A stretch of DNA of 59,811 bases. It comes from Candidatus Omnitrophota bacterium. Lineage in GTDB: Bacteria; Omnitrophota; Gorgyraeia; Zapsychrales; Fredricksoniimonadaceae. Shown one piece after another: positions 37,641 to 56,498 of the stretch. The notes beneath the pieces are model-generated. The model saw only the letters and a program-made list of their open reading frames with translations, ran no database searches and was not told the origin of the DNA. Made by a program: the position numbers and the translations under genes. The stretch is taken from contig JABDCU010000009.1 in assembly GCA_013287965.1 (NCBI GenBank), forward strand, positions 1 through 59,811. Reading direction: 5' to 3'. Within the stretch, counting starts at the first letter, position 1; each line of letters starts with the position of its first letter.

Positions 37641-39254
37641 ATGAAAGAACCGATCAAAGAAAAAGAGCCAAAAGACCCCAAGGACCTTCAAGGTGATTTG
37701 GACAAGTTAGTGACGCTGGGCAAAAAGAAGGGCTTTTTGACCTATGAAGACGTCAACGAAACCTTGTCCGATGCCATTGATTCGTCCGAGGACATTGACC
37801 AGGTCTTTGACGTTCTCGACGGACAGGACATCAAGGTCGTTGATTCCGGTGAAGAGACGCCTGTGATCGCTGAAGAAGCGGTGGAAGAAAGCCGTGAGCA
37901 GCAGGTGCGCCGCTTGCGTGAGGAGAACAAGGAAGATGATGTTTATTCCGACAAGTTCATTCCTCTGGATGACCCGGTGAAGATGTATTTAAAGCAGATG
38001 GGTTCCATCCCGCTTTTGACCCGTGAGGAAGAGATCGCGCTGGCCAAACGTATCGAAGAAGCGGAATTGCGTTTCGCGGAATCTTTATTCAAGACATATT
38101 ACGCGCGTAAAGAAGCTTTAGCCATCATCAATCAGGTTTTGAACGATGAGATCAATGCCGAAGACGTGATCAAGGATGAATTGGAACGCCGCGGCCGTTT
38201 AATGAAAGACCTGGCCAAGATCCTCGAGCATGTGCGCCATACAAGGGTAGGTTCTGATATTTCCGCTAAATCCATCGCAGAATTCAAATTGACCTCCACC
38301 ATCAATGAGGAGATCGTCATCAAGATCTCTGATCTGATCGGCAACATTGAGCGTGTGGAGCGGCACTTGAAGGTCAAGAAACTGCCGGCCAATGCCGCGG
38401 AGTTCAAGCGCCAGTCGATCGCCTTGCATAAAGAATTAGGCGAGCCGGTGGAAAAGGTCAAAGAGCAGCTGCGCGAGATCAAGACACGCCAGTCGCGTTT
38501 CAATAAAGCCAAAAAATTGCTTGTTGAGGCGAACTTAAGACTGGTCGTGTCCATCGCTAAAAAATATATCAACCGTGGTTTGTCTTTTTTGGATTTGATC
38601 CAGGAAGGCAACATGGGCCTGATCCGTGCCGTCGAGAAATTCGAATACAAGCGCGGTTATAAATTCTCTACTTATGCGACATGGTGGATTAGACAGGCCA
38701 TCACGCGTTCCATCGCGGACCAGGCGCGCACCATCCGCATCCCGGTGCATATGACCGAGACCATCAACAAGATCATCCGTGTCTCGCGCGTTTTCGTGCA
38801 GGAATATGGCCGTGAGCCATCCGCGCAAGAGATCGCCAAGGAAATGCGTCTGCCGGTGACCAAGGTCAAAGAAATTCTAAAGATCTCCCAGGTGCCGATC
38901 TCCTTGCAGACACCGATCGGGGACGAAGGGGACACGCATTTCGGGGATTTCATCGAAGATAAAAAAGCTGTTTCTCCGGCGAATGCGACCTTGCATTCCA
39001 TGCTCAAGGAAGAGATCACCTCAGTGCTCTCGACTTTGGATGACCGTGAGCGCAAGATATTGGAATTGCGTTTCGGGATCATGGACGGGACTTCTCGCAC
39101 CCTGGAAGAGGTGGGAGCGGAATTCAACGTCACCCGTGAGCGTGTGCGCCAGATCGAATCCAAGGCCTTGCGCAAACTGCGCCATCCGACACGTTCCCGA
39201 CGCATCAAGTCCTTTTTGGACATGGCGGCCAAAGAAGCCGAAGCCACTATTTAA
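37641..39254 (+). CDS. rpoD: RNA polymerase primary sigma factor RpoD (sigma70)
   Basis: A 537-residue primary sigma factor. Region 1.1 (acidic, [20 protein letters not shown]), region 1.2 ([22 protein letters not shown]), region 2 ([60 protein letters not shown]), region 3 (IRIPVHM) and region 4 ([29 protein letters not shown]) are all present. Region 2.4 and 4.2 look standard, which agrees with the TTGACA/TATAAT promoters seen across the window. It is 7 nt after dnaG. Confidence 0.97.
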
Positions 39255-39274
39255 TATCAGCGCTATTCATCGCA

Positions 39275-39453
39275 GGTCTGTATAGATAGGTATTATGTAT
39301 TTGGCACGGAATATTTTCGCCGTCTGCTTCGGTTTACAATAAATCTGTTTTATAGCAGCATTAGTATATGAACAGATTTATTGTAAAGCCTCGCAGACAT
39401 TTGGCGAAAAATTCCTGATTGTGCCAAATACATAATACCTATCTATACAGACA
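39275..39453 (+). repeat. 179-bp near-perfect inverted repeat between rpoD and aroD (MITE-like)
   Basis: The outer arms (39276-39307 and 39421-39452) are 32 bp and exact reverse complements. The pairing continues inward with short bulges through GGAAT, TTTTCGCC and GTCTGC to a 17-bp perfect inner arm (TTTACAATAAATCTGTT with its complement), leaving a loop of about 21 nt. Flanking CGCA occurs on both sides (39271-39274 and 39454-39457), a possible 4-bp target duplication. It contains no ORF of note. It reads as a non-autonomous inserted element or a very long hairpin filling the gap. Confidence 0.85.
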
Positions 39454-39463
39454 CGCAATTAAC

Positions 39464-40141
39464 ATGCCTAACATTAATTCTCAAATCGCTCTAGTGATCA
39501 CCGACCACGAAACTAATGCCCAAATCAAGAATTTGGGCGTTGGTTTACTTGAACTGCGCGCGGACCTGTTTAAAAAATTAGACCCTGCCTACATTGTTGC
39601 TCAGATCAAACACCGCAAACTCTTAAGAATTCCATTATTATTGACCCTGCGCAATCAGAAAAAAGAGGGCGCTGTAAAAGTGTTTTCCGATGAGAAGAAG
39701 TGGCAAATTATCTCCGCTGCTTTGCCTTTGGTGGACATGATCGATATTGAGCTAAGTTCGCCCTTGTTAAGAAAAGTTTTGGTCTTGGCCCGTCAATTAA
39801 AGAAAAAGGTCATTGTTTCCAGCCATCATCTGCAGGGCATGCCGCACGATTTGGGATCTATTTTCAAAAAGTCTTTAAGCACAAGGGCTGATATTGTGAA
39901 AATTGCAGCCAAGGCGAATTCTTTTGATGATGTGATGACGATGCTTGAGTTTACCCATCGTCATCATAAGCATCCTTTGATCACCATGTCCTTGGGGCCT
40001 TTGGGCACCATATCGCGTCTGGTCTTGCCGGCCGCGGGGAGCCGTTATACCTATACCTTCCTTAATAAGCCAACAGCGTTGGGTCAAGTTGATGTTAAAA
40101 CTCTCAAGTCTCACATGAAGATTTATTATCCTCATGAGTAA
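39464..40141 (+). CDS. aroD: Type I 3-dehydroquinate dehydratase
   Basis: A 225-residue shikimate-pathway enzyme converting 3-dehydroquinate to 3-dehydroshikimate through a Schiff base. [10 protein letters not shown] holds the substrate-binding Glu/Arg, the catalytic His is in VSSHHL, and the Schiff-base lysine is Lys146 (DIVKIAAKA). [13 protein letters not shown] and [11 protein letters not shown] complete the fold. I start at the ATG at 39464; an in-frame extension would begin inside the inverted repeat. No ribosome site precedes the start. It overlaps the SDR gene by 8 nt. Confidence 0.93.
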
Positions 40142-52762: not shown

Positions 52763-54298
52763 ATGCGCGCCGCCGTTATAGATATCGGTTCTTCTTCCAT
52801 CAAGCTTTTGATCGCGGAAAGCCACGGGGAAGATGTCAAGATCATCGAATCACTTAAAAATGTGATCCCTTTGGGCAAGCACGTCTTTATTAAAAACCGC
52901 ATCCCTCAAAGTATTATAAACCAAACTGCCGCTGTATTACAGAAATACAAAGATTCCTTAAAAGAATATGATGTCCAGAATGTCATGGTCATTGCCACGA
53001 CAGCCGTGCGCGAATCGCGTAACCGGGATATTTTCCTAGATACGGTCCTGCGCAAGACCGGTTTTAAAATTGATGTTTTAAATGCGGGGGACGTGGTTTA
53101 TTACATTGATTATTTCTTGAGCCATAAATTAAAGAAGACCTATCCGGTGGACAAGAAAAACCTTTTGATAGCGGAGTTAGGTGCCGGCTCTCTGGACATC
53201 TCGGTGATGGAAAAGGGGCTGACGCTCATGAACATCGGTTTTCCCATCGGAACGCTGCGCTTATCACAATTCATGGAAACCCTGGATGGTTCCCTGCAGG
53301 AAGTGCATGAAGCGACCGAAGAGTATATCGAGAATGAAGTTTTTTTCTTAAAGAAGAACAATGCCAATTTGGACATTGACGACATCATCCTCATTGACGA
53401 GAATTATTCAGTTTTTATCCAGAATGTACTGCCCAATAAACGCCGTGATTCGGATTTCTTCAAATTCAAGGCCACTGAAGCCCAGGAATTGCTGACGCGT
53501 TTAAAGCAGATGAACGTTGAAGAAATTGCCAATACCTACAGTGTTCCCACGGACATTGCCTCGACCATCACAGGCTTTGCCATCATCCTTAACACCTTGT
53601 TCAAATTCAATAAGAATGAGTATGTTTACATCCTCGAGGCTTCTCTGTCCGAAGCCATCCTGGCGCATTTATTGTTTAAATTCGACATGGAGGAGGGTGA
53701 CAATAAGCTAAGCCAGCTGGTGTCAGTGGCGCATTTTCTTTGCCGTAAATACGGCATGGACTTAGACCACTTGAAACACGTAGCATCCATGACAGAGCAG
53801 CTTTTTGACGCTTTCAAGGACATCTTGGGTTTGGAAGAGAAAGACCGTTTGTATCTTCTTCTGGCTTCTTATCTGCACGATATAGGGATGTTTGTCAATA
53901 ACCGTTCGCACCACAAGCATAGCGAATACATCATCAGCTCTTTGAATTTATTCAGGCTCACCGAGCACGAGATCAATATCATCGCCTGTATTGCCCGCTA
54001 TCATAGGCGTTCAGCGCCTTTAAAGACCCACTTGTTATACAATTCTTTGGCATCTGCCGAGCAGATCCTGGTGCAGAAATTAAGCGCTCTTTTACGCATC
54101 GCCAATTCTCTGGACCGTTCGCATAAGCAAAAGGTCAAAAAGCTGGAAGTCAAATTCAATGCCGCAGGGGATGCGACCATCGTGGCGTATACGCACGAGA
54201 ATTTCTTGTTGGAAAAAGAGAACTTTTTGGAGAAGAAGGAACTGTTCGAGGAGATTACAGGTAACAAATTGACGTTGACAGTAAGGACTCAGGATTAA
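52763..54298 (+). CDS. Ppx/GppA family phosphatase with C-terminal HD domain
   Basis: A 511-residue exopolyphosphatase / pppGpp phosphohydrolase-type protein. The N-terminal ASKHA fold has AVIDIGSSSIKLLIAE, ATTAVRESRN and IAELGAGSLDISVME. The C-terminal HD part (about 320-510) has YLHDIGMFVNNRSHHKHSEYII. In this family such enzymes degrade polyphosphate or pppGpp. The gene sits upstream of ppk, separated by the long inverted repeat at 54297-54459, so synthesis and breakdown of polyphosphate are encoded side by side. Confidence 0.9.
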   Translation: MRAAVIDIGSSSIKLLIAESHGEDVKIIESLKNVIPLGKHVFIKNRIPQSIINQTAAVLQKYKDSLKEYDVQNVMVIATTAVRESRNRDIFLDTVLRKTGFKIDVLNAGDVVYYIDYFLSHKLKKTYPVDKKNLLIAELGAGSLDISVMEKGLTLMNIGFPIGTLRLSQFMETLDGSLQEVHEATEEYIENEVFFLKKNNANLDIDDIILIDENYSVFIQNVLPNKRRDSDFFKFKATEAQELLTRLKQMNVEEIANTYSVPTDIASTITGFAIILNTLFKFNKNEYVYILEASLSEAILAHLLFKFDMEEGDNKLSQLVSVAHFLCRKYGMDLDHLKHVASMTEQLFDAFKDILGLEEKDRLYLLLASYLHDIGMFVNNRSHHKHSEYIISSLNLFRLTEHEINIIACIARYHRRSAPLKTHLLYNSLASAEQILVQKLSALLRIANSLDRSHKQKVKKLEVKFNAAGDATIVAYTHENFLLEKENFLEKKELFEEITGNKLTLTVRTQD

Positions 54299-54459
54299 AC
54301 AGGTTTTGGAAACAATTTTTGAAGACCACTGTTGTCCCGCCAATCTTCGACACCGATTCAAAAACACAGCCCGAAGGGCGTTGTGTTTCTGAAAGATTAG
54401 AAAAGATTGGCGGAAAAAGACAACTCGTGGTCAAAAAAATTCGTTTCCAAAACATGTTT
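54297..54459 (+). repeat. 163-bp imperfect inverted repeat between ppx/gppA and ppk
   Basis: The left half (GTTTTGGAAAC at 54303, then GACCAC, GTTGTC, CCGCCAATCTT) pairs in order with the right half (AAGATTGGCGG, GACAAC, GTGGTC, GTTTCCAAAAC ending 54453), with small bulges. The tip is AAACACA, GCCC, GAA, GGGC, a 2-nt bulge, TGTGTTT. The hairpin overlaps the ppx stop and ends 5 nt before the ppk start, so it fills the gap. Its arms do not match those of the 39275 element, though the layout is alike. Confidence 0.85.
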
Positions 54460-54464
54460 CATCT

Positions 54465-56498
54465 ATGAATAATACTATGGAAACTAAAGAGAAATTTATA
54501 CATCGCGATCTAAGCTGGCTGGAGTTTAACCGCCGGGTCTTGGAAGAGGCTGCTGATGAACATAATCCGCTTTTAGAGCGCATTAAATTCCTGGCTATTT
54601 TTACCAGCAATCTCGACGAGTTTTTCATGGTCAGGATGTCAGGGGCCCATAAGCTTTTGGCTTCCGGTTACAATAAGCGCGACCAATTTGGTTTTTATCC
54701 CCAGGAACTCTTCGCGGAGATCAAAACACGCACCGACGATCTGGTGAAGAAATTCTATGAGGTCTATGAAGGCCCTATCAGGGACGCTTTGGAAAAGGAA
54801 AAGATCTATATCAAAAAACCTGAAGGCTTAAGTCTGGAACAAAAAAAATACGTGCAGCGTTTTTTTGATACCACTCTTTATCCGATCATCACCCCCATGG
54901 CGGTCGATGGCGGCCATCCTTTTCCGGTGCTGCCTTCGCGTACCATTGCTTTCGCGGCCAACATCATCCGTTCTGAAAAAAACCATCTGGCCATTATTCC
55001 CATCCCGAAATCCGTGCCCCGTTTATTGAAAGTCCCGGCGGAAGGCGAGGAGTCGGTGTATGTGCTGACGGATTATCTGATCAAAGAGAATTTGGGGCAA
55101 TTTTTTAAAGGTTATAAGATCCAGGATGCATCGATCTTCAGGGTGCTGCGTGATAGTGAGCTGGAAGTTGATGAAGGTTTTGCGCCGGATCTCCTTAAAG
55201 CCCTGGAGAAAGAACTGAAAAAGCGCTCGAGCGCCAAGGCGGTGTATTTGCAGATGCAGGAAGGGACAACGCCGGAGCTTTTGGAGGTTTTGTGTAACGG
55301 GATTGATTTTCCCAAAGAAGAGGTGGTGTTTACCGCCTCGGACCTGGACCTGAATTTTCTTTACGACCTGTCCGCGTCAACGGACAAGCCGCAGTTGCGT
55401 TTCTCCAGCTTCACACCTGCCAAATCCGTTTATGAGAATATTTTTGATAAGATCAAGGATGAGGATTTTATTATCCACGTGCCTTTCCAGTCTTTTATGC
55501 CGACCTGTGAACTCATCGCTGCGGCGGCCAAAGACCCGGATGTTTTAGCTATTAAGATGACGCTTTATCGCACCAATGAGGATTCAGCCATTATCAAGGC
55601 CCTGATGGAGGCAGCCAAGAACCGTAAGCAGGTCACGGTGGTCGTTGAGATCAAGGCCCGGTTTGAAGAAGAAAAGAATATCCAGTGGTCGCGCGAATTA
55701 GAGCAGGCCGGCTGTCACGTGATCTATGGGATCGCGGGCCTTAAGATCCACTCAAAGATGAGCTTGATTGTGCGCAAGGAAGAAGGCCGCATCCGGCGTT
55801 ACGTGCATTTATCGACGGGAAATTACAATGAAAAAACAGCCAATGTTTACACGGACATCGGGTTTTTTACGTGCAATGATGATTTTGCCCGCGACATCGC
55901 GGATGTGTTTAACGTCATCACCGGCTATTCCCTGCCCAGTCCCTGGAAAAGGGTCATCTCATCCCCGCATGACCTGCGTAAATATTTCTTTGACCTGATC
56001 GACAAGGAGATCGAAAACCAGCAGGCGCACAAGAATGGTTTGATCATTGTCAAAATGAACGCCCTGGAAGATGTCCAAATTATTGAGAAATTGTACGCGG
56101 CTTCCAATGCCGGTGTTAAGATCAGGATGATCGTGCGCGGTGTTTGTTCCCTGGTGCCGGGGGTGGAAGGTTTAAGCGAGAACATTGAAGTGCGCAGCAT
56201 CGTGGGCCGTTTCCTGGAGCATTCACGTGTTTTTTATTTTAACAATAATGGTAATGGCCGTGTCTTTTTGTCGTCGGCAGACTGGATGACCCGTAATTTT
56301 GACCGCCGCATTGAGCTTTTGTTTGAGATCACCAAGCCTGAGATCAAATCTCACGTGCAGTTTATCCTGGACAGCTATTTAAAAGACACCCGTAAAGCCA
56401 GGGCTTTAAGGAGCGATCGCAGTTACAGCCGCATTAAAAAAGAAGGCGGCGCGGCTTTTGACGTGCAGGAATATTTTATCAATCATTATACAAGATGA
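54465..56498 (+). CDS. ppk: Polyphosphate kinase Ppk1
   Basis: A 677-residue polyphosphate kinase that builds polyphosphate from ATP. HRDLSWLEFNRRVLEEA and NLDEFFMVR open the protein. Catalytic residues lie in the two PLD-like domains: His429 (GLKIHSKM), the phospho-His position, and His586 (LEHSRVFYF). MALYRT-type MTLYRTNEDSAI and HLSTGNYNEKTA are also present. Length is normal. The start may be 54465 or 54477; neither has a ribosome site and both directly follow the long hairpin. Confidence 0.95.
   Translation: MNNTMETKEKFIHRDLSWLEFNRRVLEEAADEHNPLLERIKFLAIFTSNLDEFFMVRMSGAHKLLASGYNKRDQFGFYPQELFAEIKTRTDDLVKKFYEVYEGPIRDALEKEKIYIKKPEGLSLEQKKYVQRFFDTTLYPIITPMAVDGGHPFPVLPSRTIAFAANIIRSEKNHLAIIPIPKSVPRLLKVPAEGEESVYVLTDYLIKENLGQFFKGYKIQDASIFRVLRDSELEVDEGFAPDLLKALEKELKKRSSAKAVYLQMQEGTTPELLEVLCNGIDFPKEEVVFTASDLDLNFLYDLSASTDKPQLRFSSFTPAKSVYENIFDKIKDEDFIIHVPFQSFMPTCELIAAAAKDPDVLAIKMTLYRTNEDSAIIKALMEAAKNRKQVTVVVEIKARFEEEKNIQWSRELEQAGCHVIYGIAGLKIHSKMSLIVRKEEGRIRRYVHLSTGNYNEKTANVYTDIGFFTCNDDFARDIADVFNVITGYSLPSPWKRVISSPHDLRKYFFDLIDKEIENQQAHKNGLIIVKMNALEDVQIIEKLYAASNAGVKIRMIVRGVCSLVPGVEGLSENIEVRSIVGRFLEHSRVFYFNNNGNGRVFLSSADWMTRNFDRRIELLFEITKPEIKSHVQFILDSYLKDTRKARALRSDRSYSRIKKEGGAAFDVQEYFINHYTR

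Follow-up and report, generated by a model that had tools for sequence, protein, structure and literature searches.

What is the long inverted repeat that lies between rpoD and aroD in this Omnitrophota genome, a mobile insertion or a fixed RNA structure? The repeat was recognized in a window of 59,811 nucleotides, which is the whole stretch of DNA that was analysed, and all its features are given on the forward strand. The gap of 209 nt (39255..39463) lies between the rpoD stop codon (39252-39254) and the aroD ATG at 39464. Both gene names were supported by NCBIfam, with the AroD model at 134.2 bits, just below its cut-off of 139.3. The original prediction described a 179-bp inverted repeat filling this gap, with exact 32-bp arms, pairing continued inward and a 21-nt loop, and these coordinates were confirmed. 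The hairpin indeed sits in the gap, but it covers most and not all of the 209 nt.

The left outer arm (39276..39307) is the perfect 32-bp sequence GTCTGTATAGATAGGTATTATGTATTTGGCAC, and the right outer arm (39421..39452) is its exact complement; 0 such pairs were expected in shuffles. Further inward, the inner left arm (39322..39349), which begins with GTCTGC-TTC-GGTTTA, and the inner right arm (39371..39398), which ends with TAAA-G-CC-TC-GCAGAC, were 86% complementary. They enclose the terminal loop of 21 nt (39350..39370), which is variable between subfamilies. Two conserved one-sided bulges follow, ATTT at 39399..39402 (NTTT in most copies) and the 5-nt TGATT at 39416..39420 on the 3′ arm, which is shorter in some distant copies. 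The part common to other copies, the conserved core, spans 39306..39422 and is oriented along the forward strand; the covariance model described below matched 39307-39426. Folded as RNA, the hairpin had a minimum free energy of -104 kcal/mol compared to -41.9 ± 4.2 kcal/mol in dinucleotide shuffles (z -14.9), which agreed with the predicted very stable RNA hairpin.

The hairpin has many relatives. A search for further copies returned about 15 copies of the core, which is ~120 nt long, together with remnants in the window genome (1.52 Mb, 69.5% complete). The core family was also present in five of six congeners (G001-G005) and in some other genera of the same family, and G006 kept only a family remnant. 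With a covariance model built from 33 copies and nine candidates scored per genome, the family was found in 93 of 384 Omnitrophota genomes and 62 of 282 genera, in a patchy spread. The core was seen in all 19 members that were re-read by eye. A degenerate exact pattern matched 45 stretches among the genomes of 84,980 species, all of them Omnitrophota. Viral contigs, phages and plasmids gave no match, and a viral, phage or plasmid origin was rejected. A copy with a gene inside its loop was also considered and rejected, because the left half-cores that seemed unpaired had, in those re-read, a right half nearby; the one exception, a left half-core in G021, falls within an open frame and seems to be a chance match. 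No literature on such repeats in Omnitrophota was found, and the family is apparently undescribed before in this mostly uncultured phylum.

The same gap in close relatives was then compared. The rpoD-aroD junction was empty in G005 (TAATAAATG) and G006 (TAAATG), and the gap held another, unrelated hairpin in G003 and G004 (GGGGACACTTTAAAGTGTCCCC in the latter). G002 carried another copy of the family in this gap, which is probably an independent insertion because its distance from the stop codon differs and its core belongs to a subfamily of its own. At nine other loci of the window genome, the relatives were mostly empty. Only one site was common, and there G001 holds a core-deleted derivative. 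Thus, the absence of any other copy together with conserved presence, which would have pointed to a fixed regulatory RNA, did not occur, and the hairpin is neither unique nor a fixed RNA.

The start of aroD was re-examined as well. The ATG has no Shine-Dalgarno sequence, as was first noted, and the insertion had been suspected of displacing the native signals. The congeners without the window-type element also lack an aroD Shine-Dalgarno sequence, except for G004 with AAGGA (by eye). In two congeners without an insert, aroD begins at or a few bases from the rpoD stop and has no ribosome site. Since the empty congeners lack one too, no aroD ribosome site was displaced. What the insert breaks, if anything, is the stop-start coupling of rpoD and aroD.

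Other hairpins were observed in the same kinds of gap. Hairpins of the GGGGACACTTTAAAGTGTCCCC type fill gaps that hold the window family elsewhere, namely the rpoD-aroD gap in G003 and G004 and, in G001 and G004, the site corresponding to C6a of the window genome. The arms of some G005 copies of the window family contain GGACACTTTAAA, as do GGGGACACTTTAAAGTGTCCCC-type hairpins. At the G001 site matching C13a of the window genome (L269, C9:35135-36489), about 700 bp were found that hold a different large hairpin and an ORF resembling a GIY-YIG nuclease (by eye). The window itself contains a second palindromic hairpin of another family at 54283-54470 (z -10.0 as DNA), also with a one-sided bulge, which extends from a gene's stop codon to before the ATG of the next gene. 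This second family had about 9 matches in the window genome and at least 16 in G005, and was also present in G001, G003, G006, G011 and G019. In G011, members of both hairpin families are neighbours at two places, C7:26439-26735 and C12:15422-15714, with no more than about 60-80 bp between them.

Comparison of the copies showed a constant core within variable arms. The core consensus was CGGRATATTTTNGCC-GTYTGC-TWC-GGTTTA ... TAAA-N-CC-TY-GCARAC-NTTT-GGC...ATYCC-TNATT-GT, with one-sided bulges on the 3′ arm. The outer arms and the inner stem-loop differ between copies and stay complementary, and conservation drops outward. When the 33 copies were aligned, both sides had changed at 24 of 39 core pairs, and such changes filled 171 cells compared to 50 ± 5 after shuffling; sliding the partner destroyed this signal. 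At the outer pairs, all four Watson-Crick states were present. In sister copies, the arms had changed independently of the core: L091 and L092, both of G005, had 0 differences in 110 core positions and 6 changes in 22 arm positions, all six matched on the opposite side, and L083 and L086 of G002 had 2 core changes and 7 arm changes, the latter all matched. It is unlikely that the arms are built anew from target DNA whenever the element inserts, because sister copies still agree in about 70% of their arm sequence.

The modules also occur in different combinations. In the window genome, near-identical inner stems of the CAATAAATCTG type occur in C9, C10, C6a and C2a with different arm classes. 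Moreover, the core appears inverted relative to the outer ends in L110, L084, L079 and perhaps L091 (G005 and G002; by eye). Because the same stems occur in different arm classes and some cores appear inverted, this pattern indicates that cores and arms are exchanged or that the core moves. Several derivatives with perfect or near-perfect arms had lost the core (L016 1576-1609, L068, L106 and L297), as expected for deletions at hairpin tips.

The ends of the repeat were also considered. The original prediction suggested a non-autonomous miniature inverted-repeat element, a description that is broadly right, as the repeat is non-coding, short, multi-copy and insertion-polymorphic. However, its outer arms do not form conserved terminal repeats of the kind known from a textbook MITE. 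The suggested 4-bp duplication CGCA (39271-39274 and 39454-39457) lies one base off the arm on each side, and direct repeats at the arm ends of 71 copies were no commoner than in shuffled flank pairs, so that CGCA was rejected as a target duplication. Next to many copies the motif ACGC appears again, as part of the element. CGCA is thus chance or element sequence and poor evidence of a target duplication.

The ends in G005 were of another kind. Three kinds of hairpin, the window family and two unrelated interiors, lie there inside the ends GGYTCTTTGAAATTTTGAATGGGTA, and four of the five terminal-repeat pairs detected automatically had perfect 8-bp duplications, a count that covers few elements. 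One of these pairs, L297, has the arms of the window family without the core. G005 also has resident ISL3 transposases, whose own end begins with GGTTCTTT. Such ends and 8-bp duplications are typical of ISL3 elements. We take the G005 ends to be of this type from 8 shared terminal bases and from these general features of the family. Because ISL3-like terminal repeats and 8-bp duplications bound palindromes in G005, an ISL3-type transposase likely moves them there. The two unrelated palindromic interiors were seen within these ISL3-like ends at L311-L315, L316, L322 and L325, and at L310 an unrelated interior with these ends adjoins a remnant of the window family. In the window genome, which is an incomplete assembly, a search for the mover found none: no ISL3 transposase was detected and ISL3-like ends were absent. 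None of the copies examined had a transposase of its own.

These ends raise the alternative that the repeat is an ordinary MITE, that is, an element with terminal inverted repeats and target duplications that is moved by a DDE transposase, for instance of the ISL3 type, and has an interior that is palindromic by chance. The bounded palindromes of G005, the ISL3 transposases in G005 and G011 and the similar ends around copy L372 in G228 agree with it. We nevertheless regard it as somewhat unlikely, since in most genomes, that of the window included, conservation is found in the centre and is missing from the outermost arms, which is the reverse of a MITE. The lack of duplications at the arm ends of the 71 copies and of ISL3-like ends in the window genome also speaks against it, and G007, G012 and G013 have ISL3 transposases without detected copies of the family.

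A second alternative is that the hairpin core itself spreads, either by inserting at the centre of palindromes that are already present, ISL3-type elements among them, or by being swapped in there. We hold this to be unlikely. If true, it would produce nested palindromes with locus-specific matching arms, and would imply a phylum-wide system in which hairpin tips move through recognition of a bulged, folded DNA strand.

The matched changes could be maintained at the DNA or the RNA level. Selection on one transcribed strand would tolerate G-U and not A-C mismatches. Over the core, inner and outer pairs, 49 G-U and 63 A-C mismatches were counted, and the core alone had 2 G-U and 0 A-C in 1,034 cells. 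In tRNA acceptor stems from the same loci, used as a control, there were 10 G-U and 0 A-C. Since G-U and A-C were about equally frequent, unlike in the tRNA control, these results argue for upkeep of the palindrome at the DNA level and not for RNA selection. In E. coli, template switching during replication is known to improve the symmetry of quasipalindromes (PMC7202029), and we infer that it may act on the Omnitrophota palindromes.

The genomic context of the copies was surveyed as well. Among the copies with genes on both sides, 39 of 45 lie between co-directional genes, often right after a stop codon, and of these 30 run in the sense of the flanking genes and 9 against it (p = 0.001), with the flanking genes called by ORF length only. 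This bias, together with the very stable fold and the conserved bulges and internal loops, would suit a structured RNA transcribed in operons, where the hairpin would control processing, stability or termination of the rpoD-aroD transcript, and the mobile ERIC and NEMIS repeats have been reported to affect mRNA stability (PMC2229807). Such a role is improbable as the main explanation: no Rfam family reached its gathering score, with only sub-threshold microRNA matches, sites are empty in close relatives so that the genomic position is not conserved, and G-U is not enriched over A-C. The sense strand has no terminator-like T-run, and an intrinsic terminator was rejected for want of a match on that strand. 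Secondarily, the hairpin may still have some effect as RNA. The orientation bias is a point against a purely DNA-level repeat, of which it is not required; an effect at the RNA level, the avoidance of harm or the replication strand might each explain it.

The repeat could also be a REP/REPIN-type element moved by an HUH (Y1, RAYT) transposase recognising a folded single strand. In favour of this are the bulged asymmetric hairpin and compensatory changes, which are as in REPs and REPINs (PMC8266576, PMC3116915), and a Y1 transposase of RAYT size in the window genome. We give this little credence, because the Y1 gene has its own short hairpins (AATGTGTCCCGG) on either side, and Y1 genes and the family do not track each other across genomes, so that a RAYT/Y1 link was rejected. 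The aligned copies have no constant GTAG-like foot (GTAG or CGTC tags were looked for), and a REP is several times smaller than the core. At L198 (G000 C3:55529-55855), short hairpins containing AATGTGTCCCGGTTTTT were recorded on both sides of a Y1 transposase of RAYT size.

Taken together, the rpoD-aroD hairpin is probably a single insertion of a mobile, non-coding palindromic DNA repeat that is dispersed in Omnitrophota. The element would carry no gene, and a protein acting in trans would recognise its core once this has folded into an asymmetrically bulged DNA hairpin, either single-stranded or in cruciform. The arms would serve as a scaffold that drifts or is replaced, with template switching across the palindrome during replication copying each arm change to the other arm. 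Cores at different loci would be exchanged through recombination, gene conversion or re-insertion. With unusual clarity for a natural system, the family displays matched changes in the two palindrome arms at the DNA level, and it warns that strong covariation by itself is no proof of RNA function. Identical cores with different self-matching arms also provide a test bed for palindrome evolution by template switching, gene conversion and tip exchange.

Several known repeats resemble this family. The double-hairpin elements of fungal mitochondria are likewise mobile hairpins with compensatory stem changes, but they are organellar, GC-rich and much shorter. For ERIC and NEMIS/Correia repeats, we know of no report of modular arms with exchanged cores. 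They share with the Omnitrophota repeat the character of mobile repeats of ~107-155 bp in transcribed intergenic gaps with possible effects on mRNA (PMC2229807). MITEs, including the ISL3 type, are similarly non-autonomous, short, palindromic and multi-copy, and G005 adds hairpins inside terminal repeats with 8-bp duplications, whereas the window genome has no constant terminal repeats or duplications. REPIN/REP elements with RAYT share the extragenic hairpin, compensatory changes on both sides and a one-sided stem irregularity (PMC3116915, PMC8266576), and E. coli REP hairpins need a bulge for recognition by their transposase (PMC8266576). However, REPINs have conserved ends and a variable centre (PMC3116915), while the Omnitrophota repeat has a conserved centre and variable ends, and lacks a GTAG tag and a linked transposase. 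By the features tested, the repeat fits neither the MITEs, as constant terminal repeats are confined to G005-type copies and 8-bp duplications to the ISL3-like ends of G005, nor the REPs, as the tag and a linked RAYT are missing. YPAL/RU-2 of Yersinia is also ~170 bp and intergenic, with internal and not terminal inverted repeats and mobility evident from empty and filled sites (PMC2229807). YPAL differs in making 3-26 bp duplications and targeting dyad symmetry, neither of which was seen at the Omnitrophota arm ends, and it belongs to another phylum. With its internal repeats, intergenic position and mobility, YPAL is the closest in kind to the Omnitrophota repeat.
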